The notes under the pieces: model-generated
Database searches by the model: none
The model's input: the letters and a program-made list of their open reading frames with translations, nothing else
What the model was told of the DNA's origin: nothing
Part shown: piece by piece, positions 1,687-33,778 of the stretch
How the letters are laid out: each line of letters starts with the position of its first letter
Position numbering within the stretch: position 1 is the first letter of the stretch
Assembly: GCA_948144175.1 (NCBI GenBank)
Contig: CANXME010002106.1
Location: 124,001 to 188,000, forward strand
DNA: 64,000 nt
Direction: 5' to 3'
DNA from: Closterium sp. NIES-65
Taxonomy: Eukaryota > Streptophyta > Zygnematophyceae > Desmidiales > Closteriaceae
Made by a program: the position numbers and the translations under genes

Positions 1687-2740
1687 ATGGAGAGGGTGCG
1701 GGTTGGGCGGAAGGAGAAGCGCGGGGAGGAGGGGAGGCGCGGGGGTCGCGCGGAGAGCGAGGAGCGGGAGGAGCGTGATAAGGGTGAGGGGAGGAGGGAG
1801 AGAGATCAGATGAGGGCGAGGGATGGCTTGGGGGAAGGTGAGCGCGAGCGAGATGTGATTAGGGTCAGGGACGGCGGGAGGGGCAGGGAGAGCGAGAGGG
1901 GACGAGGAAGGGATGACGTGGATGGGAGGCGAAGGGAGAGAGAGGATGATGGTGGCAGGGATAGGCGATGGGATGGCGAGATGGAGAGGGAGAGGGAGCG
2001 AGACGGCAGGAGGGGGAGGGGCAGGTCGGGCCGGCACAGGCGGGGAGGGTCCGATTCGGATGGGAGTGAGAGCAGCGGCGAGTGGGAGAGGGAGCGAGAG
2101 AGGGAGGGGGGGGGGGGTAAGGGGGAGAGGAAGGGAAGATAGGCACAGGAGGCATGAGGAAGGCAGGCGAGAGGAGGGGCGGCGAGAGAGGGGGAGGGGC
2201 GAGTGGGAGGGAGAGGAGAGGCGGGGCGACGGGCGGGGGGCTCCCGTGCGCGCACCCAATGCTGATGCTGCCGCCACTCCTGCCCCCGCCGCTGCTGCCG
2301 CTGCTGGCGGAGCAGCAGGCCCAGGCGCAGGTCCGGCAGCAGGCAAGGCAGCAGCAGCGCGGGACACAGGGCGCACGGGAGGCGCGTACATCCCGCCGTT
2401 CAAGCTGGCGCGCATGCTGCAGGAGGTGAACGACCGCAGCAGCGCGGAGTACCAGCGCCTCACGTGGGACGCGCTGCGCAAGTCCATCAACGGGCTGGTC
2501 AACAAAGTCAACGCCAGCAACATCAAGAACATCATTCCCGAGCTCTTTGCGGAGAACCTGGTGCGCGGCAGGGGGCTGCTGTGCCGCGCGTGCATCAAGT
2601 GGCAGATGGCCAGCCCCACGTTCACTCACGTGTTTGCGGCGCTGGTGGCGGTGGTGAATACCAAGTTCCCCGAGCTGGGCGAGCTGCTGCTCAAGAGGAT
2701 CATCCTGCAGTTCAGGAGGGCCTTCCGGCGCAATGACAAG
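1687..2740 (+). CDS. CWC22: CWC22 exon 1: charged N-terminus and start of MIF4G
   Basis: The ATG at 1687 opens a region rich in Arg, Glu, Asp and Gly, as is usual for the CWC22 N-terminus. An Ala/Pro linker (about 2250-2375) follows, then the MIF4G start [14 protein letters not shown] near 2381 and a run to [10 protein letters not shown], with donor gtgagg at 2741. The charged N-terminus is open in one frame up to 2142 and the MIF4G part in another. The switch fits a 12-G run at 2106-2117, after which the second frame carries on the same Arg/Glu-rich composition. A one-base length difference in that run (assembly error or allele) is the simplest explanation; a small intron starting at the gtaagg just after the run is the alternative. 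Confidence 0.85.
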
Positions 2741-5700
2741 GTGAGGGGTGAAGGGAAAAAGGTGGTCTAGTCTCCTCCCCCTGTTCGCTGGGAACTTGTT
2801 GCTCGGGTGCTGGTGGACGTGGTGAATACCAAGTTCCCCAAGTTGGGCGACCTGCTTCTGAAGAGGATCATTCTGCAGTTGAGGCGGGCGTTTTGACGCA
2901 ACGACAAGGTGAGAGGGGAGGGAAGGGAGGGAGGGGAAGGGAGTAGGTGAGGGGAAACGGTGGACACGGTGGTAGGCTAGTTGCGGTGGTGAGCACGAAG
3001 TTCCCAGAGCTAGGGGAGCTGATGCTGAAGAGGATTATTCTGCAGTTCAGGCGGGCGTTCCGACGCAACGACAAGGTGGAGGGTGAATGGGAAAAAGGGT
3101 GGCCTGCTTGTCCTGTAGGCAGGGAGCTTGTTGCGCGGGCTGGTGAGGGGAGATGGGGCACGTGACGGTCACACATCTGTGATGGGCGATGCTTCACGTT
3201 CCTGGTCGCCTCCCGCCTCCTTCACAACCCAGCGTTACGTGGTAACCAGCAGGTGGCACTCCATGTGACTTCCAGTCTCTCCTCTCAATGTCTCTCCATC
3301 CCCTTGACGCTTCAACCATCTCCCATCCCCGCGCCCCCTCTCCCCACCACCACTCCTCCCCCTCTATCTCCTGCAGCCGGTGCTGGTGGCGGCGTGTCGC
3401 TTCCTGGCCCACCTGGTCAACCAACAGGTGGCCCACGAGGTAGTCGCGCTCGACCTGCCTCCCCTCCTTGCCCCTTACTATATTTCCAACCGCCCTTTCC
3501 CTACCCACCTCCCGCTCACTGCAGCGGGTGCTGGTGGCGGCGTGTCGCTTCCTCGCCCATCTCCGCAACCAGCGGGTGGCTCATGAGATGGTGGCGCTTG
3601 AGCTGCCTCCCTCCCTCCTTTGACTCCTTTGCCTCATTTACCTCCCTCTTTACTGCACCCGCCCGGTGCTGGTGGCGCCGTGTCGCTTCCTCACCCACCT
3701 GGTGAATCAGCAGGTGGCACACGAGATAGTCGCGCCCGAGCTGCCTCCCCTCCCACCCATGCCTCTCTTCATATCCATCATAAACCCCCCTTCGCCCTCA
3801 CTCCCCTCCAGCCGGTGCTGGTGGCAGCATGTCGCTTCCTCGCGCACCTCTGCAACCAGCAGGTGGCTCACGAGATCGTGGCACTCGAGCTGCTCACACT
3901 GCTGCTGGAGACGCCCACGGATGATAGTGTGGAGGTGAGGGCTGGGCTGGGGGAGGTGGGTTGTGGGGGAGGTGAGGCCTGGGGGAGGTGGTACCTGGTG
4001 AAGAGGGAAAGGCGGATAGTGCCGCTCGAGAATGTAGTAACGTTGCAAGCGTGGTGAACCACATGCCTGTAAAGAAGGATGTAGTTCACCATCCTGCTGC
4101 TGGAGACGCCCACTGACGACAGCGTGGAGGTGAGAGCTGGGGGGGGTGGTATCTGGTGAGCTCTATGCCTGGTGCAGGAGGATATAGGCGCTCGAGCTGC
4201 TCACACTGTTGCTGGAGACGCCCACTGATGACAGTGTCGGAGGTGAGGGCTGGGAGAGGCGAGGGCTGGGGGAGGCGAGGGCTGGGGGAGGCGAGGCGTG
4301 GGGGGTGAGGTGGTATCTGGTGAGCATGGAAAGGTGTATCGTGCTGCCCGAGCTGCTCACCCTGCTCACCCTTTCCACCCCCGACCACTTCCAACCACTC
4401 TCAACCACTCCCAACCAGGTGGCAGTGAGCTTCGTGAAGGAGTGTGGCGCCATGCTGCAGGACCTCTCGCCCCAGGGCCTTCACAGTGAGTGCTCTTGCC
4501 TTAGGCTTGGGCTTAGGCTGGGGTGAACCCAGCGAGTTCCGGCCAGCCTCCACAGTGAGTGCTCTCGCCTTAGGCTTGGGATTAATCTTGGGAGAGCCCA
4601 GTGACATGGCCTCCACAGGGAGTGCCAAGTTGCTTGGTATGTGCGTATTTTTTCAGTTGCTCTCCGTCCTCGTGCCGTTTCAGCCCTCCCATCCCATCAA
4701 TCTTCTGTCCAGCGTACATTTGCCATGCCACCACCCGCTTCCCCCCTTCCATCAACCACCTTTTGTGTTGAATTTTACGCGCCTGCGTCCACATACGCTG
4801 CACAAGAGCCATGGAACTGATCATCTGCGCCCCAATGCCCCTGTGCTGTGCTGTGCTGTGCTGTGTTGTGCTGTGCTGTGTATGTGGATGCGAACTGAGA
4901 ATGCATGCTCCCTGCCAACTGAGTGGTGCGCACACTGATGCATCGCTGCACTAATTTCTCGCAGCAAGTTTCACAGTCTTGATCCTATTGCTTAAGTGTT
5001 TGCTACAGGTTTGCAGCTACTCCACGATGAGTCTTGATCCTTGGGCTAATGAATGCATGCTCCCTGAATGCATGCCTTGGGCTACTGAATGCATGCTCCC
5101 TGCCGACTGAGTGGTGCACACACTGATGCATCGCTGCACGTCCTGCCTCCCTTCCCGTCCTCCCCCTCCCACCCCTCACCTCGCAGGCATATTCGAGCGC
5201 TTCCGCGGCATCCTGCACGAGGGGGAGATCGACAAGCGCGTGCAGTTCACCATCGAGGGGCTCTTCGCGATTCGCAAGGCCAAGTTCGAGGTGCGTGGTT
5301 GGTGAGGTGAGCGGGCATGGGGAGTGTATGGGTGGTGGCACGGGTGATGCTGTGTGTGCAGTTCACCATTGAGGGGCTCTTCGCGATTCGCAAGGCCAAG
5401 TTCGAGGTGCGTGCCCGTGATGTGGGGGAGTACATAATTCATATGGGCAGTACACGTGCAAGTGTGCATGGGTGTGTGTGTCTGTGCGAGTTCAGCTCAC
5501 CATCGAAGGTCTCTTTGCCATCCGCAACGCCAAGTTCGAGGTGCGTGTGATGGGGTGAGGATCGATCACCCATGGTGCTGTTGCGGATGTAGCTAAAGAG
5601 GTGCCTTAACCACAACTCGCCTCCATTCCAACCACAACTCGCCTCCATTCCAACCACAACTCGCCTCCATTCCAACCACAACTCGCCTCCATTCCAACCA

Positions 5701-8700
5701 CAACTCGCCTCCATTCCAACCACAACTCGCCTCCATTCCAACCACAACTCGCCTCCATTCCAACCACAACTCGCCTCCATTCCAACCACAACTCGCCTCC
5801 ATTCCAACCACAACTCGCCTCCATTCCAACCACAACTCGCCTCCATTCCAACCACAACTCGCCTCCATTCCAACCACAACTCGCCTCCGTTCCAACCATC
5901 TCCCTCTCTCAGGGCTTGCCCGCAGTGCTGCCCTGCCCAGGTGGGGGAGGGGGATCAGATCTTGCACGAGCTCTCAACATCACACGCGCACCCTGCTGGC
6001 CTCATGCTCACGTCTTCACACCCCTCCCGATGCTCGTCTCTCCCCCTCCCGATGCTCGTCTCTCCCCCTCCCGATGCTCGTCTCTCCCCCTCCCGATGCT
6101 CGTCTCTCCCCCTCCCGATGCTCGTCTCTCCCCCTCCCAGGGCTTCCCAGCGCGGCTCCCCGAGCTTGACCTGATAGAGGAGGAGGGTCGGATCACCACG
6201 AGCTCTCAATCTCTCCCCTGCTCACTTCATGCACACGTCTTCCCGTCCCTCCCTCCCATGTCTCTTACCCTCTCCACGGCCTCCCATGTCTCTTACCCTC
6301 TCCACGGCCTCCCATGTCTCTTACCCCAATCTCTCCCCCTGCTGACTTCATGCACTCCTCTTCCCGTCCCTCCCTCCCTCCCATGTCTCTTACCCTCTCC
6401 ACGGCTTCCCAGCCGTGCAGCGTGGGATCGATCTGGAGGAGGAGGTGGAGGAGGAGGAGGGGGATCAGATTGGAACACCCACAAGCTGTTATTCGCTCAC
6501 TGACTTCATTGGCCTCATGCACACCTCCCCCCGCCCCTTCTCCTCCCCGTGTCTCCTGCCCTCTCTCAGGGCTTCCCAGCAGTGCTGCCCGAGCTGGATC
6601 TGGTGGAGGAGGATCAAATCAAATCACGCACAAGCTGGCAATCACTCCACCCACCTGGCTTCATGCTCACCTCGTATCGTGATTCCCCACCCACCGTGTT
6701 CCGTCCCCCCTTTCTTCAGGGCTTCCCAGCAGTGCTCCCCGAGCTGGATCTGGTGGAGGAGGAGGATCAGATCACGCACGAGCTGTCGCTGGAGGAGCCT
6801 TATGACCCCGAGACTTCACTTGGTGAGCTTATAACGAGGATGTGTTGCGTTGAAAGGGTAGATCTGGTGGAGGAGGAGGATCAGATCACCCACGAGCTCT
6901 CCCTTGAGGAGCCGTATGACCCCGAGACTTTTCTGGTTGAGCAGCGAGCTTATAACGAGGATGGATTTTGTGGGCAAGGGTGTCAGATTACCATCCTCAT
7001 TATAACCTACATCAATCCTACAAGCTTAGGCTAGAGATAGCCACCCAAACTTAGTTTGGGTGTAGAACTAGGGCTAACCCTAGTTGGGGGTTGGAACTCC
7101 AACCTTGGCCCCAAGGTTGGGTTGGGAATTATTGGTCCCCCCAATAATGTTGAACCAACTTGGTCAACATTATTGGTCCCCCCAATCATCCCTCAACCCA
7201 ACTTATTGGTGGGGGCCAATAATGTTGGCTTGGTTCCCAACCAACCCCTCCCCCCTAGCACTACTATGTATACCTCCCTCTCTCCTAATGAATCTAATGG
7301 TTCCTCCTCTCGTTTTTTTTAACATGGTAATCAGAGCTACAACGGTTAACACCGTCTCTCGATCCTAAGAACCACACTTAACGCGTGCCGTATCACGCCC
7401 CCCCTCTCTCACTCGCGCTTAAGTTGCGCTAGTACGCCTTCACGGCCCCCCTCCCCCCTTGCACTCACGCACGTTCCCGCGCCTCCCCCGCACGAGTTAC
7501 GATCGGCAGCCCGCTCCCTCCCCCCTCCCCTCTCCTCCCTCACTGCGGTGCATTCCGCCGACAAGGGCGGACGCGACCACCGCGGCGCATTCCGCCGACG
7601 AGGGCGGACGCGACCACCGCGGCGGATTCCGCCTACGAGGGCGGACGCAACCACCGCGGCGGATTCCGCCTACCAGGGCGGACGCGACCACCGCGGCGCA
7701 TTCCGCCGACGAGGGCGGACGCGACCACCGCGGCGCATTCCGCCGACGAGGGCGGACGCGACCACCGCGGCGGATTTCCGCTGACGGACGCGCTACCGCG
7801 GGTGACGAGGCGCATCCGCGGACGGACGCGCACCTACGGGCGACGAGGCGCATCCGCGGACGGACGCGCACCCACGGGCGACGAGGCGCATCAGCGGACG
7901 GACGCGCACCCGCGGGCGACGAGGCGCATCCGCGGACGGACGCGCACCCGCGGGCGACGAGGCGCATCCGCGGACGGACGCGCACCCGCGGGCGACGAGG
8001 CGCATCCGCGGACAGACGCGCACCCGCGGGCGACGAAGCGCATCCGCGGACGGACGCGCACCCGCGGGCGACGAAGCGCATCCGCGGGCGACGAGGCGCA
8101 TCCGCGGACGGACGCGCACCCGCGGGCGACGAGGCGCATCCGTGGGCGGACGCACACCCGCGAGCGACGAGGCGCATCCGCGGACGGACGCGCACCCGCG
8201 AACGGACGCGCACCCGCGGGCCACGAGGCGCAATCACGGGCGACACAAACGCAGCTGCGAGTAACCCGGCGCCACCATACGTTACGTGACCGCACCACCC
8301 TTCCAAGTGGTGTCGTCCTCTTTGACCGCACCCGCCCTCAAGCCGGTGTCGTCACCCCCTCCCCTCCTCCTCCTCATGGCGGACGACTCCACTCCCATCG
8401 AGCTCGGAGCCATTGACAAGCTCGAACTTCTCCATGACACCACGGCCGTAAACTGGGCGTCGTTTGAAGATACGCTTCACACACACCTTGGCTCCGTCAT
8501 CATTCAAGATTATTGCCTTCTTGATGTCGCCCTCGAGCACCCTAATGGCCTCCCACCTGTACTCCCCCCTCCCCTTGAACCTCCTCCCCCTGATGCCCCT
8601 CCTCCACCCGAGCCTCTTCCCGACCCCCCGCGTGCCCCAGTTCATGATGACAACCCGGATCGCTGGGGGGCCAACCTGAACATTTACAACAGGCTTCGCG

Positions 8701-26700: not shown

Positions 26701-29700
26701 CTATGACGACGCAAGAAGGCCAGACCTCTCCGCCGCTGGAGCAGACGGCTGGTACGGACGCGGATGCTGGCACTCGTGTCACCCCCCCTGCTGATGGTCG
26801 CGTCGCTCCAGTGGTCGCGACGGCGTCAACGTCTTCTGCTCCACCCTCTGCATCTCCAGTTCCGGATCCAGTGGCGCCTGCGCCTGCGGCCTCGTCTGCA
26901 TATGCCTCTGCAGGGGGGGACGAGGAGGACGAGGATGACGACGATGGTTACTTAAGTGACGACCCGGAAGAAGGCATTGAAGTGCAGATTAAAGGTGCAC
27001 TGGCGGCTAAGGCGCGAGTTACGCTGACGCTCTTGATTCCGTTCGAACTGGCGAAGGAGATGGCCGCAGTGAAGCCCTCGGTGAAAGCGCTTCTGATCTT
27101 CCTGAAACAAAAGAAGTTATCGGACAAGGCACTTGACGATGTCGCGTTCCAGGAACTGCTTCCGACGTTCATCTCCAAGATCCACTTCAGTCGCCTGCAA
27201 GTCACGCTCGCGACGGTTGAAGACGCGGAAGTGGTGCGTCAGCACCGTGTGGAGCACATTGTCGGAACTACGAAACATCAGTTTGGCTGGCTGCATCCGG
27301 TGAACCGTGCTTACGTGAATGCGAAATCTGACCTGCCGGAAGGAGTGGAAGTTCTGCTGAAGGGAGTCCCGGCGGAGATCACGCCGCTCATCGTGTATGA
27401 ATCGCTGGTGGTTGCGAAGCTACAGAAGCGCGGCCGTTCAGCATTCTTGCAGGGCGCAGGCTTTCACCGTGTGGTTGACCCTGTTTCGGGATTGGACACG
27501 GACAAGATTCGCGGGTTGGTGGTCCCGCATCCAGGGGACATGTACCGCTGGCGCCATGTGGTGGAGGACCCGCTCAGTGAGGCGACGTACCTTGTGCACA
27601 ACCCATCGTTGTCCTGCTGCTTCTGCCAGGGACCGCACATGGATAAGTTGCATGATGTGTATGTGCATGAGCGTCGCAACAACATCAGCAACTGGAACTT
27701 GTCTCTAGGCAGGGTCCATTCGATGAACGGTAATAGGGGGGGGATCTCACCGTGGGGTCATTGTCGTTGCCTGATCGCTTTTTTCCTGTGTACTGACGGA
27801 GCTGTGATGGATATCCACTGCAGCGGCCTCCATCCAGTCGGCAGGGGTGGTGAGGAAGATTCTCCGCGACCCGGCGTTGGTCCTTATCTCGACGGAAGCC
27901 AATGTGGAAGAATGGCTGTGTGTCCAGGAGTGCTGCGAGCGGGCGCATGGCGACTCTTTCGCACAGGCAGTGGCTCATATTGGTTCCTTCAGCCATGGTG
28001 CGGCTCTGGGCTCGGCAGGTGTGGCGACTCGCGCGACCAAGGCGAAGCAGAGCCTGCGCGCGGCGAAAAAGCTGTACGGGATCCGTGCAGAGAAGGCGAA
28101 GGGGAAGTAGCTCGGTCGTGTGATGGCATGTGGAGTAGTAGGAGTGTGCCAGCTGTCATTGTACCTGTACGGAGTATAAAAGCAGAAGTCATCACTTACG
28201 GCAACACCAATAACACAAGCCCGTGGATGCTGAGGGGCTCATCAATGGTTATTGATGGGTAAACACACCACCCTTACCTTTAACGTCCTGAACGTCAATG
28301 GTCTCAGCTGCAGGCAAAAGCAGCAGGATGTTCAGGACTGGATAAGAGACGGTGCTCACATCGCCATTTTAGCGGACACACGGATCTCAGGAGATCATAA
28401 TTTTTGGAACCAACTGCAAGCGGACAAGGTGGTTGCAGTAACTCCGGCAGCAAGGGCTGGGGGTGTGGCGATTGTCTTACGGAATAGTGAAGTGTCCTGC
28501 TCAGATGAGGTCAAGGATGCATCGGGCCGTCTGGCGCGGGTGAATATGGCATGGCGTGGTGTAATGGTGACGGTTGTCGCGGCTTACTTCCCGGCGAGCC
28601 CGACATCCAGAGCCCCATTCTTTCGCGATGTGCTCCGGCCGTTCTTGGCGGCAATACCGGCTGGAAATCTGCTGCTGTTGGCGGGAGATCTGAACATTAT
28701 CGAAGACCCTGCTTTGTATAAGATTTCGGGGCTTGGCTCAAGGGGAGAGAATGATAGATTAATGTCCATCTGCAGCAACTTTGATGTCCGAGATGCCTTC
28801 AGGGCGCTCCATCCTTGCCTGCAGGAGTATACCTTCTACGCAGCAGCAGTTCAGGAGAGCTCGAGGATGGACAGAATCCTTGTCTCGCAGGCGCTGCTGC
28901 ACCAGGTCCATGAGGTGCGGCATGTGGGGTTGATCAAGAAGTTCACAGATCACTGGTCCGCAGTTCACCTGCAGCTCAGCGCGGGGGGAGATGGGGAGTC
29001 AGGGCCAGGGCTCTGGAGGCTTCCGGCGTCACAAGTACCACGTCCTGGGGTGCAGCGGCGGGTGGAGCGAATCGTCCTGAAAAATACAGAGAGGGGGGGG
29101 GTCTGGAGGAGCTAACGGCATCCTTGACGGTAGGTCTCAAGGCCTACACAGTGGAGGAGCGGAAGCGTGTAGCAGCTACGACGGCACACCTGGAACGGGA
29201 GGTTGGGGAGCTGAGGCAAAAAGTGATGAGTAAACCTCGATGCTTAAGGGCGAAGGCGCGCCTAGCGAAATGTGAAGCGAAACTCAAGGCCTACGCGGAT
29301 GGAAGGCGTTGTAAGATGCAGGAGCAGGCGGGAATCAAGGTGGAAATGAACGGCGAAGCTCCCACAGGCTTCCTCTCTTCCAGGGTAAAGGCGCGGAAGG
29401 CTAAGACACGGCTGGCAAACATTCTCTACCAGGGGTCCCGGTATGAAGGGGCTAAGGAGGCGCTGAAAGCTGCGTCGGACTTCTACACAAACTTGTTTGC
29501 AGCGGGCGGGAACTCACAGCTGGACTGGGAGGTGGACAAGTGTCTCTCTCAGGAGGACGCGGCGGCGCTCAGTGCACCTTGGGATGAGGCGGAGGTCAAA
29601 CGCGCGCTGGCAGAAATGGCGTCGGGCAAGACGCCGGGGCGTGATGGCCTCCCGAAAGAACTCTGGGAGTCACAATGGGATCTGCTGGGGGGGCAGCTGA

Positions 29701-32700
29701 TGCGGTTTCTGAAGGACTTTGAGCGGACGGGGGTACTCTCCAGGGAGTTTTCAACTGCTGTGACTGTGCTTCTGCATAAGAAAGGTGCCAAAGATGACCT
29801 GCAGAACTATCGCCCGATTACACTGTTAAGCACAGTATACAAGCTGATTGCGAAGTTACTAGCAAACCGGATAAAAAGCAAGCTGGAAAGCGTGGTGTCG
29901 ACTGGGCAGTTTGGCTTCTTACCGGGAAGGAGCATCGCTGGCGCGGTGGCGGTTGCAGCAGATGTGATTGATGCCGCGAATGCGGGAAAAGAAGACTTGC
30001 TGATGCTCTTGGTTGACTTCCGAAAAGCCTTTGACTCGGTGGCGCGGGGGTATCTGTTTGACGTGCTGCGGAAGATGGGCTTCCCGGAGGCCTACGTGAA
30101 GTGGGTAGAAGGGCTGCATCACGGCGCAGCAACTCGTATCTGCAATGACGGATGGCTGGGTGAGGAGGTCCCGGTCTTGACTGGGGAGAGGCAAGGCTGC
30201 CCTCTCGCGCCGTACTTGTTCCTGTGCGCAGTGGAGCCGTTCTGCCAGGAGGCAAGGAGGAGATGGTTAGGAATCAAGATTAAAGACGCGGGGAGGCTGA
30301 CTTACCTGGGGTACGCTGATGATACTACCCTGCTACTCGACGGTCGTTCGCAGCTGGGAGACGCGGAGCTGCTGCTGAAGGAGTTTGAGCGGATGTCGGG
30401 GCTAGCAGTTAATTGGGACAAGTCGGTGGTGTTGCCGCTGGGGAGTCAGCGTGATGAACCACCGCCAGCAGACGGGACCTTCAAGTGGGCGTCGCGGGAT
30501 GACCCGGAGCGCCTGCTAGGGGCTGGATCACACCGGGAGGAGATGCAAAGCCGTCGTGGAAGAGGGCTTTAAGCAAAATGGAGGCAGAGCTAAAAAAAAT
30601 GGGAGGCGCAATTTCTTACCACCACGGCGCGGGTAACGGTAGTCAACGCGTACGTCATGCCCGTAGCGTTATTCCAGGCCCAAATCTATCCCCCGCCGAA
30701 CACGATTTGGGAGGAGCTGAGGAGATTGTGTCATGCCTTTGTCTCCGGCGGGCGGGCGAGCGAGCTCGGAGCCTGGCTTCATCCTCTGGAACGGGGACCT
30801 CATGCAACTCAAAAGGGAAGAAGGGGGACTCGGAGTGATAAACTTGAAAGACCGGCTGGACGCAGAGGCACTTCACTCGCTGGCGCAGCTGCTCACGGAG
30901 GAAATGCCACAGCGGCGGTTGTTGGCAGAGCGTGCGGCAAACCTCCCGCTCGGCTACGCCTCAATCCTTGCGCATGAGGCGCTGCTGAAAGCGTGGGGCA
31001 CAGGAAGTGAGCGGTGGAAGGCAATTACGGCGGCGGCAATGGCGTCGCCAGCTATCAAGAACCTGGCGGTGGGGAACAGATGGGACATTGAGATGGAACG
31101 GGTGCTCTTCAATAGACACATCCTTCGTGAAGGCAGTTACCCCTTCGGACGGCGCAAAGGCGACGAATGTCTGCACATCATCATGGTGGGGGATCTGCTC
31201 ATGAAGTGGGCGGATGGCACCAGAAGTTGGAAGTCGCCAGAACTGCTGGCGCGAGACCTGGGCAGCAAGCAGGCAGCGGAAATAGCGACGGCGATCAGGG
31301 AGGCATTAAGCGATGAGTGGAAGGAGCGTATCCTGAAACCGCTCACAGCGGAGGAATTGGCAGAAGCTACGACGGTGGTGAGAACGACGGTGAGGGGGAT
31401 GAAGATGTGGCAGATTCGCAGCGCCCGCGGCAGCCTTCTTTACTGTGTAAAGATGAGTCTACGCGGCGATGGGAAGACGTGGGTCGTGCCTGAGGGAGCG
31501 AAGGTTAAGGCACTATCCATGTCGGAGGTTACGCCGATGGCGATGATGGGAGACGAGGTGATTGGGGAGCTGGGCGTGGCGCGCAGCAGACTACTAAAAT
31601 CAGAGCTGTGCGAGGGCAAGACAGCAGCCTCACTGAAGCAGCTGAGAGTAGGACTGGGGGTGGGGCGTAAGCAGTCGGACAAGCTGCCTCGCCGTGCAGA
31701 GTGGGAGCAGTTGTGGGGGAAGAAGATTGATTGGGGGCGGGCGATTGCGCGCAGGGACTCCCATGTGGTTCCCGCAAGGGCGCGGGATGTCCTGCTGCGC
31801 GCTCACTGCTTCAACTTGCAAGTGGGGGACAGTTTGAAATTCCTGGGTGAGTGGGCGAAGTGTCCACATTGCGGGGAGGCGGAATCGGTGGATCATGCAT
31901 TGTTTTCCTGCCGTGTCATCCAACCTGTCGTGGGAGCCCTCAAGGATGCAATTCGCTGGTTCAATCCAGCGCGGAATGAGAGGACACTTGGTGACCTGCT
32001 CTTCCAACGTGGAGGGGCTGCTTCCGGATTTCCGGAACTGACTGTGTTGGCCATTACGTTTCATCAAATCTGGGTGGAACGGTGTAATGCTGTTTTCAGG
32101 GGGCGAAGGTTCCAGTGCAGAAAGGTGATGCGGAGAATTGCGACAGCTTTCTGCCTTCATGCGCGCACCTATGAAGGCATCAAGCGGAGGAAGGCGTGGA
32201 TCAAGAAGAGGCACGTGGCCAAGAAGCATCTGGCCAATGACGAAGTTGCAGCGTTGGAGAACGCCAGCACGATGGTGGCCAGTAAGCTAACGTGGCGTGA
32301 TGATTTTCTGTCGATCTGGACGGACCGGAGGGCCAGATACAAACCACCGTAGCTGCATACGAGGGGTGGCTCTCTCATTGTTGTGTAATTGCCCCCCTCC
32401 TCCTAACAGTTACGACTGTGGCCCCTTTTGCTGTATCTTTGATATAGTGAAAAGCCTTCTATTTAAAAAAAACTCAGGTGGGCTTCAGTTCACTTCAGCC
32501 TGAGTGTGTGCTCTCAGGCTCTTTGCTCACTTCCTCGCCACTGATGCCATGCCCTGGGCGCTTCTCTCTTACATTCGCCTCACAGAGGAAGACACCTCTT
32601 CCTCGTCCCGCATTTTCATCAAGATCATGTTCCAGGTGAGTCGCAGTGAAGCTCAGCTTGACACCGCACTCACAGAGCGGTGCCACAGTGGGCTCTTTGC

Positions 32701-33778
32701 TCACAGAGCGGTGCCCCAGTGGGCTCTTTGCTCACAGAGCGGTGCCACAGTGGGCTCTTTGCTCACAGAGCGGTGCCACAGTGGGCTCTTTGCTCACAGA
32801 GCGGTGCCACAGTGGGCTCTTTGCTCACAGAGCGGTGCCACAGTGGGCTCTTTGCTCACAGAGTGGTGCCACAGTGGGCTCTTTGCTCACAGAGTGGTGC
32901 CACAGTGGGCTCTTTGCTCACAGAGCGGTGCCCCAGTGGGCTCGTTGCTCACTTCCTCTCCACCGACTCCATGCCGTTGGCGATGCGCTCTTGTATTCGC
33001 CTCCATGGGGAAGACACCCCCAGCACCGCCTCACACCCCACCTCCAAACTTTGTTCTCTGTCCCGAAACTCGCCTCTTAACAGGAGATGTCGGAGCAGCT
33101 GGGGCTTCACAGGATGAACTAGAGGCTCAGCGACCATTCATCTGCATCTCTGTTTCCCCCGTGTCCCCCGAACGCCCCACCCCCATTCTCTCTCTGTCCC
33201 ATTACCACCCCCCCTCCCCCCTCAACCCGAGCAGGAGATGTCGGAGCAGCTTGGGTTGCACAAGATGAATGAGACGCTCAGCAACGTGTGCTTTGTTCTC
33301 TCCCCCCTTCCCCTCCCACCCCCCCCCCCCTCCCCCCTTCTCTCCCCCTCCCCCTATTTCCTGAAACCAACCATAACAGGAGATGTCGGAGCAGCTGGGG
33401 CTGCGCAAGATGAACGAGAGGCTCAGCGACCCGACCATGGGGGCGGCGTTTGACGGCATTTTCCCCAAAGACACGCCCAAGAACACGCGCTTCGCTATTA
33501 ACTTCTTCACTTCTATCGGTCTGGGAGGGCTGACAGACAACCTGAGGGAACACCTGAAGAACATGCCAAAGCTGATCATGCAGCAACAGAAGCCTGTTCA
33601 GGTGTCCGAGAGTGAGAGTGAGAGCGAGAGTGATAGCGAGAGTGATAGTGAGAGTGAGAGTGATAGTGGGTCGGACAGCGGGAGTGACAGTGGGAGCGAG
33701 AGTGAGAGCGAGAGCAGTGAGAGAGAGAGTAGTGAGAGTGAGGATAGCCGAGACAAGAAGAGGAGGCGCAAGAAGTGA
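1687..33778 (+). CDS. CWC22: CWC22 pre-mRNA splicing factor, nine-exon gene (whole span)
   Basis: CWC22 is a nuclear spliceosome protein with MIF4G and MA3 domains. From family knowledge it binds eIF4A3 and brings it to the spliceosome for exon-junction-complex assembly. Visible family signatures are [14 protein letters not shown] and the helix ending FRRAFRRND (exon 1), [12 protein letters not shown] (exon 2), [20 protein letters not shown] (exon 4), [13 protein letters not shown] (exon 5), the acidic linker and [13 protein letters not shown] (exon 6), [18 protein letters not shown] (exon 8) and [19 protein letters not shown] (exon 9). My exons are 1687-2740, 3812-3934, 4419-4485, 5187-5290, 6720-6822, 22075-22397, 24025-24110, 25005-25224 and 33380-33778. 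All introns are GT-AG and all junction phases agree from exon 1 to the stop. The summed length (2479) is one base over a multiple of three, matching a single frame change in a G run of exon 1. The product would be about 825 residues, near the animal length. Two introns are swollen by transposons. Confidence 0.93.
2809..2908 (+). pseudogene. Decayed copy of the exon 1 3' end (copy 2)
   Basis: Repeats the last about 100 bases of exon 1 (VVNTKFP...LLLKRIILQ...RNDK) and ends in the same donor, gtgaga. It has substitutions and an in-frame TGA in the RRAFRRND region, so it cannot serve as coding sequence as it stands. Confidence 0.88.
2978..3075 (+). pseudogene. Copy of the exon 1 3' end (copy 3)
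   Basis: A third copy of the block ([20 protein letters not shown] to RRNDK), again ending at a GT donor. It follows an AG at 2976-2980 and stays open in the CWC22 frame. It could be read only if spliced alternatively; exon 1 already contains this segment. Confidence 0.85.
3377..3454 (+). pseudogene. Partial copy of exon 2 (copy 1)
   Basis: Follows acceptor ctgcag at 3371-3376 and reads [20 protein letters not shown]. It matches the first two thirds of exon 2 and then runs into intron sequence before [10 protein letters not shown] gta follows the His-Glu codons, so a cryptic donor is possible. Confidence 0.85.
3525..3602 (+). pseudogene. Partial copy of exon 2 (copy 2)
   Basis: Follows an acceptor gcag at 3521-3524 and repeats the [12 protein letters not shown] segment with small changes ([10 protein letters not shown]). 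It lacks the LLLETPTDD end and its donor. Confidence 0.85.
3663..3742 (+). pseudogene. Partial copy of exon 2 (copy 3)
   Basis: Reads [20 protein letters not shown] and then diverges. It is the third of four consecutive copies spaced about 140-150 bases apart; only the fourth (3812-3934) is complete. Confidence 0.85.
3812..3934 (+). CDS. CWC22: CWC22 exon 2 (complete copy)
   Basis: Acceptor ctccag precedes 3812 and donor gtgagg follows 3934. The 123 bases, in phase 0, encode 41 residues from [17 protein letters not shown] to [12 protein letters not shown], matching the CWC22 MIF4G helix pair. It is the only one of four copies that runs through to a proper donor. Confidence 0.93.
4090..4129 (+). 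pseudogene. Copy of the exon 2 3' end (copy A)
   Basis: Repeats the [12 protein letters not shown] segment and its gtgag donor inside the intron after exon 2. It has no exon 2 start of its own. Confidence 0.85.
4189..4242 (+). pseudogene. Copy of the exon 2 3' end (copy B)
   Basis: Repeats [15 protein letters not shown] with one extra base near the donor, followed by gtgagg. About 110 bases from the previous copy. Confidence 0.85.
4419..4485 (+). CDS. CWC22: CWC22 exon 3
   Basis: Acceptor ccaaccag precedes it and donor gtgagt follows 4485. The 67 bases encode [20 protein letters not shown] and end one base into a Ser codon that exon 4 completes, giving the family's GxxxIFER junction. Confidence 0.92.
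4482..4614 (+). repeat. Duplicated donor region of exon 3
   Basis: Two tandem copies of about 66 bases, each beginning cacagtgagtgctct and continuing through a ccttaggcttgggat-like block. The duplication copies the exon 3 donor but almost none of the exon. Confidence 0.75.
5187..5290 (+). CDS. CWC22: CWC22 exon 4
   Basis: Follows tcgcag and ends before gtgcgt at 5291. It completes the Ser codon, then reads [20 protein letters not shown] and [10 protein letters not shown], the MIF4G segment closest to the animal sequence. 104 bases, ending in phase 0. Confidence 0.93.
5359..5406 (+). pseudogene. Copy of the exon 4 3' end (copy 2)
   Basis: Near-exact repeat of [16 protein letters not shown] with the same gtgcgt donor. 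The first half of the exon is missing; a gtgtgtgcag acceptor-like sequence precedes it. Confidence 0.88.
5493..5540 (+). pseudogene. Copy of the exon 4 3' end (copy 3)
   Basis: A more diverged repeat ([16 protein letters not shown]) ending in gtgcgt. It completes a series of three exon 4 ends spaced about 115-135 bases apart. Confidence 0.88.
5608..5899. repeat. 22-bp minisatellite, about 13 copies
   Basis: Near-perfect copies of accacaactcgcctccattc plus ca, period 22. The long minus-strand frames across it are repeat artefacts. It sits just before the first copy of exon 5. Confidence 0.97.
5913..5977 (+). pseudogene. Decayed copy of exon 5 (copy 1)
   Basis: Follows ctctcag and starts GLPAVLP; after that the DLVEEEDQI part is shifted and eroded (gatcagatcttgcacgag). 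First of six copies of this exon. Confidence 0.75.
6022..6141. repeat. 22-bp minisatellite, five to six copies
   Basis: gatgctcgtctctccccctc plus cc repeats at 6029, 6051, 6073, 6095 and 6117. The array runs straight into the acceptor of the next exon 5 copy, so it is the polypyrimidine tract itself that has been multiplied. Confidence 0.93.
6141..6207 (+). pseudogene. Decayed copy of exon 5 (copy 2)
   Basis: Starts right after cccag and reads [19 protein letters not shown]. It is in the right frame but lacks the [10 protein letters not shown] end and its donor. Confidence 0.82.
6245..6325. repeat. 27-bp short tandem repeat, three copies
   Basis: The block cctcccatgtctcttaccct with ctccacgg recurs three times in the intron ahead of the third exon 5 copy, and a stray unit lies at 6380-6405. 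Confidence 0.8.
6403..6486 (+). pseudogene. Decayed copy of exon 5 (copy 3)
   Basis: Carries the GFP-AV start and an expanded gaggaggagg tract in the place of DLVEEED, then gatcagatt. Clearly an exon 5 derivative with a grown glutamate-codon repeat. Confidence 0.75.
6570..6645 (+). pseudogene. Partial copy of exon 5 (copy 4)
   Basis: After ctctctcag it reads [17 protein letters not shown], then repeats aaatc and loses the frame. The [10 protein letters not shown] end is missing. Confidence 0.82.
6720..6822 (+). CDS. CWC22: CWC22 exon 5 (complete copy)
   Basis: Acceptor ttcttcag; reads [20 protein letters not shown] and ends at PYDPETSL plus one base before gtgagc at 6823. It joins in phase to exon 6 to give the family's L-DVFKFDP sequence. 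It is the only copy with both ends intact. Confidence 0.92.
6859..6945 (+). pseudogene. Copy of the exon 5 3' part (copy 6)
   Basis: Repeats [20 protein letters not shown] beyond the true exon 5 without its acceptor. It lies about 35 bases before the Ty1/copia insertion. Confidence 0.85.
6981..7324 (+). repeat. 5' LTR of outer Ty1/copia element
   Basis: 344 bases, TG...CA ends. It contains a perfect hairpin around 7140-7180 (ccaataatgttga pairs with tcaacattattgg) and several further ccaat/attgg inverted words. Confidence 0.95.
7325..7340 (+). other. Primer-binding site of outer Ty1/copia element
   Basis: tggtaatcagagctac sits directly after the LTR and resembles the 3' end complement of initiator tRNA-Met used by most plant copia elements. 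Confidence 0.75.
7555..8240 (+). repeat. GC-rich tandem repeats in the leader of the outer element
   Basis: First about six units of 36 bases (gggcggacgcgaccaccgcg core, 7565 onward), then about eleven units of 38 bases (gacgaggcgcatccgcggac core, 7804 onward). They fill the leader between primer-binding site and gag. Long frames in all readings are caused by the repeat. Confidence 0.93.
8377..13448 (+). CDS. gag-pol region of outer Ty1/copia element, up to the nested insertion
   Basis: One long open frame. The likely start is the Met of [11 protein letters not shown]. It holds a gag domain of the copia UBN2 type, a Gly/Arg-rich stretch near 9310-9430, the protease motif LDSGAT near 10055, GAG-pre-integrase HHRLGHPN near 10575, integrase ([31 protein letters not shown]), a long Pro/Ser-rich linker (11460-12170), reverse transcriptase with YVDDM near 12875, and the start of RNase H. 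The inserted element begins immediately after it. Treated here as a fossil part. Confidence 0.93.
13449..13782 (-). repeat. 3' LTR of nested Ty1/copia element
   Basis: 334 bases, plus-strand ends tgatagaattc and gttacaaca. Same sequence as 20412-20745. It contains the inverted words attggcc / ggccaat. Confidence 0.95.
13818..19191 (-). CDS. gag-pol region of nested Ty1/copia element
   Basis: The minus-strand gag begins [19 protein letters not shown] at 19191. It carries a Gly/Arg-rich stretch, a Gln-rich tract (about 17790-17930) and the protease motif LDSGAT near 17515. The pol part has [39 protein letters not shown], an Ala-rich tract (15520-15720), reverse transcriptase YVDDM near 14785 and the RNase H end ([22 protein letters not shown]). 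Gag-protease and pol lie in two overlapping frames; copia elements normally use one. Fossil part, about one break. Confidence 0.9.
19245..19490 (-). repeat. 24-bp tandem repeat in the leader of the nested element
   Basis: About ten near-perfect units gatgccgctgctgctgccgc plus cgcc, period 24, next to the gag start. On the minus strand they read as poly-Ala/Ser. Confidence 0.95.
19751..20002 (-). repeat. 42-bp tandem repeat in the leader of the nested element
   Basis: About six units of 42 bases with core tcggcggggccgcgctggcc. Like the outer element, this one has a GC-rich tandem array between primer-binding site and gag, but with a different sequence. Confidence 0.92.
20395..20411 (-). other. 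Primer-binding site of nested Ty1/copia element
   Basis: On the minus strand tggtattcagagcc lies directly after the 5' LTR, a tRNA-Met-like primer site with one extra base relative to the usual form. Confidence 0.7.
20412..20745 (-). repeat. 5' LTR of nested Ty1/copia element
   Basis: Partner of 13449-13782, no difference seen. Followed on the plus side by the target duplication gcggc. Confidence 0.95.
20746..21134 (+). CDS. RNase H end of outer Ty1/copia element
   Basis: The distal part of RNase H beyond the nested insertion, with SSCEAELYA and [13 protein letters not shown] motifs, ending shortly before the polypurine stretch (aggttaagggg) and the 3' LTR. Fossil part. Confidence 0.9.
21195..21538 (+). 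repeat. 3' LTR of outer Ty1/copia element
   Basis: 344 bases, about two differences from the 5' LTR; followed by the target duplication aaggg. Confidence 0.95.
21544..21902 (+). other. Intron sequence between the copia element and the exon 6 copies
   Basis: Pyrimidine-rich host intron without any gene that I can support. It ends in the acceptor of the first exon 6 copy. Confidence 0.6.
21903..21972 (+). pseudogene. Copy of the exon 6 5' end
   Basis: After ccag it reads [20 protein letters not shown] and AEIL exactly as exon 6, then runs into ctgatgtgccccc. There is no donor and the acidic and MA3 parts are missing. Confidence 0.9.
22075..22397 (+). CDS. CWC22: CWC22 exon 6: linker, acidic tract, start of MA3
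   Basis: Acceptor acag follows a run of about 20 C. Reads [20 protein letters not shown], a long Glu/Asp tract, then [20 protein letters not shown] and ends QPGQE before gtgagg at 22398. The acidic linker between MIF4G and MA3 is a family hallmark. Starts in phase 1, ends in phase 0. Confidence 0.95.
22537..22638 (+). pseudogene. Copy of the exon 6 3' end (copy 2)
   Basis: Near-identical repeat of [20 protein letters not shown] to QPGQE with the same gtgagg donor. Still open in frame. Confidence 0.9.
22719..22780 (+). pseudogene. Copy of the exon 6 3' end (copy 3)
   Basis: Shorter repeat starting within [20 protein letters not shown] and ending at gtgagg. The copies shorten from the 5' side going right. 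Confidence 0.88.
22889..22940. repeat. Perfect 16-bp inverted repeat with 20-base loop
   Basis: gaagtgaggcgcttgg at 22889-22904 is the exact reverse complement of ccaagcgcctcacttc at 22925-22940. It lies between exon 6 copies and can form a strong hairpin. Confidence 0.9.
22943..22992 (+). pseudogene. Strongly decayed copy of the exon 6 3' end (copy 4)
   Basis: ttatgacgatcagcctgcac, then gggcaggaagtgagg, still recalls the [10 protein letters not shown] block and its donor, but it is heavily mutated. Confidence 0.5.
22986..23180. repeat. Two short G-rich minisatellites
   Basis: gtgaggcgagggtgcgg repeats about four times (period about 17-18, 22990-23065), then gatgggaggggtcgaggcga about three times (period 22, 23117-23176). 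Both begin with donor-like gtgagg or gaggcga words derived from the preceding exon copy. Confidence 0.85.
23207..23487. mobile_element. Foldback or MITE-like element, about 280 bp
   Basis: The left arm (23207-23311) and the reverse complement of the right arm (23383-23487) match imperfectly over about 100 bases. Examples are aagcaccagaaa, ttcatgaac.gcttcagg and agacatc.ccact. The ends are cataac-gttt... . There is no coding capacity. The structure fits a non-autonomous foldback DNA transposon or MITE; I see no convincing target duplication. Confidence 0.75.
23598..23645 (+). pseudogene. Copy of the exon 7 5' end (copy 1)
   Basis: After gcag it reads [12 protein letters not shown] and then goes into intron sequence. 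Confidence 0.85.
23703..23750 (+). pseudogene. Copy of the exon 7 5' end (copy 2)
   Basis: After gcag it reads [15 protein letters not shown]; the rest of exon 7 is missing. Confidence 0.85.
23890..23938 (+). pseudogene. Copy of the exon 7 5' end (copy 3)
   Basis: Reads [13 protein letters not shown] after acccaa; the AG acceptor is altered. Same truncated form as the two copies before it. Confidence 0.82.
24025..24110 (+). CDS. CWC22: CWC22 exon 7 (complete copy)
   Basis: Acceptor cacccag; reads [20 protein letters not shown] then YGLLGQRF, ending two bases into a Cys codon before gtgggt. Exon 8 supplies the third base and continues [10 protein letters not shown]. This is the MA3 region with the family's CCxQxRTY motif. 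Confidence 0.92.
24176..24650 (+). repeat. Five serial copies of the exon 7 3' end
   Basis: [14 protein letters not shown] plus its gtgggtgg donor recurs ending near 24232, 24333, 24443, 24590 and 24646, in units of about 100-150 bases. The first two are nearly exact; the last two are decayed (ggttctcctgggccagcggt). None has the [11 protein letters not shown] start. Confidence 0.9.
24899..24961 (+). pseudogene. Copy of the exon 8 5' end
   Basis: After cacag it reads [20 protein letters not shown], lacking the EQCF insertion of the true exon, then runs into intron. Confidence 0.88.
25005..25224 (+). CDS. CWC22: CWC22 exon 8 (complete copy)
   Basis: Acceptor ttccccag; reads [40 protein letters not shown] and ends RIFIKIMFQ before gtgagc. 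This is the most conserved MA3 segment of the family. 220 bases, phase 0 at its end. Confidence 0.95.
25299..25419 (+). pseudogene. Copy of the exon 8 3' half (copy 2)
   Basis: Repeats [20 protein letters not shown] to RIFIKIMFQ with gtgagg donor, still open in frame. The 5' half (IHRLETNK) is missing. Confidence 0.9.
25437..25912. repeat. 39-bp minisatellite, 12 copies, each with a 20-bp palindrome
   Basis: Near-perfect units of gctagcatacttttgagacg, tctcaaaagtccagttcag. Each holds the perfect palindrome cttttgagacgtctcaaaag (first at 25445-25464). Thirty-nine is a multiple of three and the array is open on the plus strand, but it lies in an intron between exon 8 copies and shows no protein logic. 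Confidence 0.97.
25928..26047 (+). pseudogene. Copy of the exon 8 3' half (copy 3)
   Basis: Repeats [20 protein letters not shown] to RIFFRIMFQ followed by gtgcgc. About 30 bases later the LINE is inserted. Confidence 0.9.
26229..28110 (+). CDS. LINE ORF1 (nucleic-acid-binding protein), disrupted
   Basis: Open from 26229, though the convincing protein sequence starts nearer [13 protein letters not shown] (about 26600). It has an Ala/Pro/Ser-rich N-terminus, an acidic tract ([20 protein letters not shown]), a globular middle part and a Cys/His cluster ([19 protein letters not shown]) that resembles but does not match a CCHC knuckle. The last about 90 residues ([20 protein letters not shown] to the stop at 28110) are in another frame. 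The switch lies in 27700-27820 and could be a small insertion or an intron-like piece ending cactgcag. Confidence 0.75.
28252..32352 (+). CDS. LINE ORF2: endonuclease and reverse transcriptase, frame-disrupted
   Basis: The endonuclease (28252 to about 29000) shows [30 protein letters not shown] and TDHWSAVHL, the APE motif series. The reverse transcriptase (about 29560-30440) shows [65 protein letters not shown] and YADDTTLL. The C-terminal part (30733-32352) has [12 protein letters not shown] and the zinc motif [17 protein letters not shown]. Frame changes lie at a 9-G run (29093-29101), near a GGGG at 30520-30524 and at an 8-A run (30592-30599). Homopolymer length changes thus explain most of the damage; they may be assembly errors or real decay. 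Confidence 0.9.
32514..32635 (+). pseudogene. Copy of the exon 8 3' half (copy 4)
   Basis: Beyond the [24 protein letters not shown] to RIFIKIMFQ appears again with gtgagt, open in frame. The LINE therefore landed inside the array of exon 8 copies. Confidence 0.9.
32668..32945. repeat. 31-bp minisatellite, about nine copies
   Basis: Units of cacagagcggtgccacagtg, ggctctttgct. The ctctttgct-cac edge is the start of the exon 8 3'-half copies, so the array appears to have grown out of the left edge of an exon copy. Confidence 0.95.
32939..33022 (+). pseudogene. Strongly decayed copy of the exon 8 3' half (copy 5)
   Basis: gttgctcacttcctctccac, then cgactccatgcc...ttgtattcgcctcc, still matches the [20 protein letters not shown] block with many changes; the donor end is lost. 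Confidence 0.75.
33083..33136 (+). pseudogene. Copy of the exon 9 5' end (copy 1)
   Basis: After acag it reads [12 protein letters not shown] followed by a stop; a broken copy of the exon 9 start. Confidence 0.88.
33236..33288 (+). pseudogene. Copy of the exon 9 5' end (copy 2)
   Basis: After gcag it reads [17 protein letters not shown] and then goes into intron. It is open but lacks the rest of the exon. Confidence 0.88.
33380..33778 (+). CDS. CWC22: CWC22 exon 9: end of MA3 and Ser/Glu-rich tail
   Basis: Acceptor ataacag; reads [20 protein letters not shown], then [38 protein letters not shown] and a tail of SE/SD dipeptides ending in KKRRRKK and TGA (33776-33778). Animal CWC22 also ends the core with a Ser-rich acidic tail; this one lacks the long RS extension beyond it. 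Confidence 0.95.
   Translation, partial: EMSEQLGLRKMNERLSDPTMGAAFDGIFPKDTPKNTRFAINFFTSIGLGGLTDNLREHLKNMPKLIMQQQKPVQVSESESESESDSESDSESESDSGSDSGSDSGSESESESSERESSESEDSRDKKRRRKK

Follow-up and report, generated by a model that had tools for sequence, protein, structure and literature searches.

Serial copies of exon ends in the introns of CWC22 and other genes of Closterium sp. NIES-65

The introns of one gene of Closterium sp. NIES-65 hold repeated pieces of the gene's own exons, which raises the questions of how these pieces arose, whether they are used and whether other genes carry them. The window, the whole stretch of DNA analysed here, is 64 kb long (C1808:124001-188000) and comes from an assembly of 874 Mb in 2400 contigs. 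The gene lies on the plus strand and is CWC22. Its nine-exon spliced protein is collinear with the PDB chains 8xi2_V (E = 1.7e-226, more than 500 residues aligned) and 5mqf_T, a CWC22 homologue (E = 7.2e-214) that we take to be the human chain. Exon positions were set from splice sites and protein alignment. Exon 1 is known by its 3' part (2248 to 2740, followed by the donor GTGAGG) and is followed by exon 2 (3812 to 3934), exon 3 (4419 to 4485), exon 4 (5187 to 5290), exon 5 (6720 to 6822), exon 6 (22075 to 22397), exon 7 (24025 to 24110), exon 8 (25005 to 25224) and exon 9 with the stop codon (33380 to 33778). A 181-base tandem repeat, about 85% alike among units, lies 5' of the gene (8 to 1052). 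No Rfam family matched the 64-kb window at gathering scores.

Copies of exon ends in the CWC22 introns

The serial copying of CWC22 exons into their own introns, reported in the initial annotation, was confirmed. The measured set comprised 33 copies, namely 28 found by blastn, three exon 7 copies recognized by eye and then aligned, and two decayed copies that were matched as well by none of 500 shuffles. This count covers exons 1, 2 and 4 to 9, with 2 copies of exon 1, 5 of exon 2, 2 of exon 4, 5 of exon 5, 4 of exon 6, 8 of exon 7, 5 of exon 8 and 2 of exon 9. The itemized list given earlier was borne out exactly and sums to 33, so that only the stated total of about 28 was off. Exon 3, absent from that list, has a short 3'-end copy (4546 to 4625, 9 exon bases and intron), listed separately here.

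All copies are on the plus strand. Both exon 1 copies are of the 3' end and have the donor GT; the one at 2777 to 2908 is decayed (9 synonymous and 14 nonsynonymous differences and 1 stop), and that at 2976 to 3075 has 14 synonymous and 2 nonsynonymous differences. Exon 2 has 5'-end copies at 3377 to 3458 (acceptor present), 3527 to 3606 and 3663 to 3744, and 3'-end copies with the donor at 4094 to 4129 and 4170 to 4242, the latter frameshifted. The two 3'-end copies of exon 4 both have the donor; c1 (5356 to 5406) has 1 mismatch in 51 bases, and c2 (5486 to 5540) has three linked silent variants that are those of the working exon at two other CWC22 loci, C and D (see below). Four copies of exon 5 are of the 5' end, three with the acceptor (5913 to 5975, 6141 to 6207 and 6570 to 6637) and one that has lost it (6403 to 6449); the fifth is a 3'-side copy (6861 to 6930) that ends 6 bases before the exon end and has 5 synonymous and 0 nonsynonymous differences.

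Exon 6 has a 5'-end copy with an identical exon part (21903 to 21973), two 3'-end copies with the donor (22536 to 22638 and 22714 to 22780) and a decayed 3'-end copy that includes the donor side (22959 to 23005). For exon 7, three 5'-end copies were found at 23599 to 23632 (acceptor present), 23704 to 23740 and 23892 to 23928, three 3'-end copies with the donor at 24178 to 24222, 24290 to 24334 and 24403 to 24446, and two decayed 3'-end copies at 24541 to 24586 and 24601 to 24647. Exon 8 has a 5'-end copy with the acceptor and an internal deletion (24901 to 24967), three 3'-end copies with the donor (25303 to 25419, with 11 synonymous and 1 nonsynonymous differences; 25930 to 26047, with 13 and 4; and 32515 to 32635, past a LINE, with 10 and 2) and a decayed 3'-side copy that falls short of the exon end (32940 to 33021, with 7 and 12). 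The two exon 9 copies are of the 5' end and have the acceptor (33084 to 33135 and 33235 to 33285).

The polarity described for these copies held throughout, as all 14 five-prime copies lie upstream of the exon and all 19 three-prime-side copies lie downstream, two of the latter (6861 and 32940) stopping before the exon end. The copies span exon ends only and cross the exon-intron boundary with order and strand kept. Their local and ordered placement on the parent's strand was likewise upheld, since comparison of the exons with their own introns, with low-complexity sequence excluded, gave 30 same-strand matches and none on the opposite strand. A splice site was said to be usually included. This was true of the donor, whose GT is kept in 14 of 15 measured copies extending to the end of the exon, and less generally of the acceptor, whose AG was at the aligned place in 9 of the 14 five-prime copies (at least one miss being an alignment shift).

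No matches were obtained between the exons and dinucleotide-shuffled introns in any of 20 shuffles, or between the exons and the window from 34001 to 64000. The chance test excluded simple sequence in exons 1, 6 and 9 as well as the transposon stretches, because spurious matches arise there on both strands. Identity of the copies to their exon ranged from 69 to 100%. The copies are short and lie within 5 kb of the parent, except for two exon 8 copies 7.3 and 7.7 kb away, which sit beyond the inserted LINE. Decay was greater with distance in 20 copy pairs and smaller in 8; outward ageing was weak, and it was reversed for exon 1.

Intron 5 contains a Copia LTR element (6961 to 21538; Pfam RVT_2, rve and copia gag) whose end repeats (6961 to 7324 and 21169 to 21538) are 97.3% alike. 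A second pair of direct repeats inside it, identical and 334 bases long (13449 to 13782 and 20412 to 20745), looks like a nested insertion. The LINE in intron 8 (26200 to 32400, with RVT_1 and endonuclease frames) parts the exon 8 copies from each other. A perfect 39-base array of 12.5 units (25425 to 25911) stands immediately 3' of the donor of an exon 8 copy, and a 31-base minisatellite (32669 to 32952) has a unit that includes the edge of the exon 8 copy (GGGCTCTTTGCTCACAGAG) and looks as though it had been seeded by an exon fragment.

The initial annotation attributed the copies to short tandem duplications in which one breakpoint falls within the exon. The polarity fits this geometry and needs no selection, because one intronic and one exonic breakpoint permit only such an arrangement. 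The clearest case is exon 7, where the copy at 24178 belongs to a 112-base tandem unit that consists of the exon end, the donor and 68 identical intron bases. This is a plain young tandem duplication, the bare event. Support for a duplicated intron part (z 4 to 7) was also obtained for some other copies, among them the more distant one of exon 1 and the three-prime ones of exon 2, and was weak for most. To this extent the data agree with a simple explanation, namely ordinary short tandem duplications with random breakpoints followed by neutral decay, those that break an exon being removed by selection. The exon 7 unit is exactly what it predicts, and the ratios of synonymous to nonsynonymous differences in the decayed copies of exon 1 (9:14) and exon 8 (7:12) match neutral decay.

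Other CWC22 loci and other genes

Searched at the protein level, the genome yielded four CWC22 loci: A, in the window; B, on contig C708; C, on C1829; and D, on C117. Loci A and B are near-identical partners. Introns differed by 2.0% between C and D, and alignable noncoding sequence differed by 4.0 to 5.2% between A and C, depending on the alignment threshold. Locus D (L034 and L035) has premature stops in exons 6 and 8 and an intron 7 about 8 kb longer than that of locus C; it could be a homoeologue or allele that is on its way to loss.

All four loci carry exon-end copies, many of them at matching positions. The three near-identical exon 7 three-prime copies are present in A and B only, and 5'-end copies of exons 3 and 4 in C and D only, indicating that the process seems to have continued after the loci split. 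The working exon 7 end of locus C together with its intron aligns with the third exon 7 three-prime copy of locus A and the intron 7 sequence that follows it (from 24403; 94.2% identity over 1031 bases). The exon 7 end of locus C thus corresponds to a position 293 bases downstream of exon 7 in locus A, a shift of the kind that displacement of exon ends predicts.

Exon-end copying is not confined to CWC22. Profile searches of the genome were made with domains of CCT, RNA polymerase subunit 2 (RPB2), MCM, proteasome and adaptin proteins, and overlapping side-by-side matches were parsed (93 of 93 rows for CCT, 54 of 54 for the proteasome, 49 of 49 for adaptin, 95 of 120 for MCM and 43 of 77 for RPB2; the rows omitted were organelle-type matches for RPB2 and, for MCM, late near-identical ones on repeat contigs). 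These genes were chosen by family and are not a random genome sample. Among the parsed pairs, which are same-strand only, include copy-copy pairs with alleles roughly collapsed, and are not independent, 13 of 13 five-prime pieces lay upstream and 13 of 13 three-prime pieces downstream; the remaining pairs covered the same model range (12) or were internal (3). After alleles were merged by hand, there were seven five-prime and seven three-prime distinct exon series. At least one pair occurred in 6 of 22 gene clusters for CCT, 6 of 7 for RPB2, 8 of 17 for MCM, 2 of 30 for the proteasome and 1 of 18 for adaptin. No end-type case was seen in the 18 adaptin clusters, whose single pair is internal. 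The low share of clusters for CCT, the proteasome and adaptin is due in part to short exon pieces falling under the search threshold.

At the base level, 38 loci from the MA3 and CCT searches were compared, leaving 23 after allele collapse; MA3 genes have repeated domains. Copies were present at 13 of these 23 exon loci, and polarity was as expected in 34 of 35 cases, the exception being L004, whose exon ends were taken from the profile match. The initial annotation had named as evidence against itself the case that only this gene behaves so, and this is contradicted by the CCT, RNA polymerase, MCM and proteasome series.

Two further patterns were noted in these searches. Four serial RPB2 matches at C1969:111314-111947 and three at C2027:161620-162077 cover the model range 251 to 284 and are perhaps copies of a whole exon rather than of exon ends. 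Matches to plastid-type rpoB and rbcL were repeated in both orientations on single contigs (C1848, C2174, C75 and C824), and organelle DNA therefore looks to have been assembled as inverted concatemers. The plastid rbcL in this assembly belongs to the plant type, which points to a plant or alga as its source.

Divergence of copies and proposed exchange between exon ends

The copies of CWC22 differed from the working exons mostly at silent sites (pS 0.33, pN 0.07), as did those of the other genes (pS 0.29, pN 0.07). If the copy were free and the exon constrained, a silent fraction of 0.383 would be expected. Silent differences made up 155 of 252 in 31 CWC22 copies (P = 8e-14), 166 of 275 in all 33 copies (P = 1e-13) and 218.5 of 379 in the other genes (P = 8e-14; L061, whose exon contains a stop, was excluded from the pooled count). 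Ratios of synonymous to nonsynonymous differences in single CWC22 copies reached 11:1, 14:2, 10:2 and 5:0, the two decayed copies cited above being near free decay. Hypermutability of CpG was rejected as the cause of the bias (47 of 258 changes were CpG transitions). A biased substitution spectrum was also rejected, since with the spectrum of the loci's noncoding alignments the expected silent fraction was 0.419 and the excess stayed (P = 3e-10). Differences among the copies themselves were 48% silent versus 24% if neutral, in 41 overlapping pairs that are not independent. In a subset that omitted the copies of exons 5 and 7 and several others that had decayed, this share was 71%. Among themselves, copies of exons 5, 6 and 9 were nearer neutral.

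Present constraint was estimated from loci C and D. In 22 copies, 26 nonsynonymous changes were found versus 22 expected at the intron rate, and pN in the working exons was 0.005, indicating that nonsilent sites in the copies are at present unconstrained. Among the A-C copies, paired by order and by hand with the exon 1 pair outside the sum and the doubtful exon 8 c1 pair left out, there were 8 silent and 14 nonsilent changes. At silent sites, the C-D copies had 15 changes versus 6.7 expected at the intron rate (P = 0.004), so that neutrality at present is limited to the nonsilent sites; this excess may be attributed to continuing exchange or to faster silent sites. As the copies are free now and yet silent-biased, much of the older divergence arose under coding constraint. 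At most one of the duplicated ends on a chromosome is a working end, and the silent-biased divergence therefore suggests that sequence was exchanged with some other working gene or allele. Pure gene conversion within a single locus was rejected by this argument alone, there being one working end per chromosome after duplication.

Comparison of the working exons of loci A and C agreed with such exchange. Where copies cover the exon, differences occupied 50 of 198 silent sites and 1 of 669 nonsilent sites, whereas 22 of 226 silent sites differed in the uncovered parts (Fisher P = 2.7e-5). At 26 of the 50 A-C exon differences (sites with at least two copies), both variants were present among the resident copies, versus 17% expected (P = 2e-8); fast silent sites, which lie outside that control, could explain part of this result. 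The end of exon 4 occurs as two haplotypes of three linked silent variants. The first is found in the working exon of A and in c1 of A, C and D. The second is found in the working exons of C and D and in c2 of A and C, and c2 of D is unchanged from that of C. This indicates that the working end switched haplotype in one lineage. The 5' copy of exon 6 equals the exon of A over 71 bases, and its intron flank is hardly alike (z 2.2), a pattern as left by a conversion tract limited to the exon. Most copies of exons 1 and 8 cannot be traced clearly to the exon of A or of C, so that a third lineage has to be postulated for them; this is the main gap in the account. Together, these results suggest that exon ends have been duplicated and exchanged in several genes of the genome.

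Plain tandem duplication with neutral decay fails on these data, although the nonsilent sites of the copies are free now. It leaves unexplained the silent excess seen both in CWC22 and elsewhere (P about 1e-13), which survives the spectrum control, as well as the exon 6 copy with its identical exon and dissimilar intron, and the shared exon 4 haplotypes. The geometric part of the original proposal thus stands, and we regard neutral decay as an unlikely account of what followed the duplications.

Silent-biased divergence would also be expected if the copies were in use under selection, as alternative splice ends or mutually exclusive exon parts. Some copies are in frame and keep the splice site with differences that are almost only silent, an AG stands just upstream of some three-prime copies (5356 and 32515, by eye), and the C-D copies have the silent excess described above. 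Nonsilent sites evolving at the intron rate argue against use, and an inserted copy would have no place in the alignment to the solved chains of CWC22. The alternative use that had been thought possible for open copies therefore found no support; the copies are without sign of use, and we consider selection on them improbable.

Carriage of the exon ends by mobile or introner-like sequence would draw on the Copia element in intron 5 and the LINE in intron 8, and is very improbable, as the copies are local, ordered and on one strand, no CWC22 exon matches the rest of the window, and all 17 genome matches of the exon 8/9 protein fall within the four CWC22 loci; dispersal among genes of the introner type was thus seen neither for this protein in the genome nor for the exons in the window. 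An assembly or haplotype artefact, which the near-identical contig pairs in an assembly of this kind might invite, is scarcely credible given copies that are 69 to 100% alike, interleaved with intron and in many cases at matching positions in other loci.

Proposed mechanism, precedents and significance

We consider it somewhat probable that the copies arose by tandem duplications spanning the exon-intron junction, through templated repair and end joining, with exchange between diverged exon ends. Most of this mechanism we infer; the geometry was observed, and the repair step is proposed to account for it. A break in or near an exon end would be repaired with duplication of a junction-spanning stretch, mostly of 100 to 250 bases. 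After an exonic break, one end would be extended along a homologous template through the remaining exon, the splice site and part of the intron, and the extended end would then be joined to its broken partner. The exon in use would stay whole, and the old end would move into the intron with its splice site, downstream at the 3' end and upstream at the 5' end. Templates may differ: the sister or the same allele would give a copy identical at birth, while a diverged allele, a homoeologue or an older resident copy would introduce silent differences from the start. Short tracts would be traded between exon ends and resident copies, as is suggested by the linked variants they share, the direction of each transfer being presumed. 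Selection on the working exon would let only silent variants through, and displaced copies would decay like intron, in keeping with the C-D nonsilent sites.

A wider possibility, which we offer tentatively and think appreciably less than probable, is that the introns of this lineage are an archive of displaced working exon ends. The archive and the homoeologous genes would write back by short conversion tracts, exons would evolve genome-wide by silent-filtered replacement of their ends, and introns would grow from the discarded ends.

Elements of the proposed mechanism have precedents, and the earlier statement that no described process does this to a whole gene goes too far. In a potato RdRp gene, according to the part of the report available, an intron was gained through one tandem duplication across an intron-exon boundary (PMC4974935). 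As here, the duplication crosses the boundary and splice signals are inherited; an exon piece became intron in potato and would do so in CWC22. Unlike that single event in one gene, the copying in Closterium is serial, at both ends of nearly every CWC22 exon, in several genes and with silent-biased divergence. Repair-mediated proximal duplications in humans, with a mean of 162 bp, lie within less than 5 kb and are attributed in the available text to synthesis-dependent strand annealing (PMC2671141). They resemble the CWC22 copies in size and closeness. That set omits copies within 50 bp and rarely touches exons (partial exon/intron donors, 4 of 824), and the text available describes no serial arrays or fixed polarity (PMC2671141).

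Likeness in mechanism is found with helq-1 mutants of Caenorhabditis elegans, in which failed synthesis-dependent strand annealing and polymerase-theta end joining give tandem duplications of about 100 bp to 10 kb (PMC8654963). In the worm model, as set out in the available portion, extended ends that fail to anneal are end-joined and the copied stretch is duplicated (PMC8654963), which is the mechanism and geometry proposed here, with sizes likewise from about 100 bp. The worm events differ in that they occurred in mutants over 50 generations with a median of about 1 kb, and no link to exons appears in that portion (PMC8654963). Mutually exclusive tandem exons (PMC9013439) are also local copies of exon sequence; in the available text these exons are chosen singly, whereas the CWC22 copies are exon ends whose nonsilent sites decay like intron.

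Of the potato, human and worm cases, none extends, in the sections available, to almost all exons of one gene or to several genes. Within the literature searched, outside which most subscription journals lay, serial copying of exon ends on the scale of a gene or genome was nowhere described. The scale, the seriality at both exon ends and the silent-biased divergence seem to be new.

If exon-end copying is general, introns record replaced exon ends, and junction mutation, conversion and selection could be read from one genome. Such a genome would offer a natural test of the tolerance of splicing to numerous decoy junctions, and the copying would be a source of intron growth and intron gain. It would also be a pitfall in gene annotation and in dN/dS studies, because the ends of an exon would differ in history from its interior.
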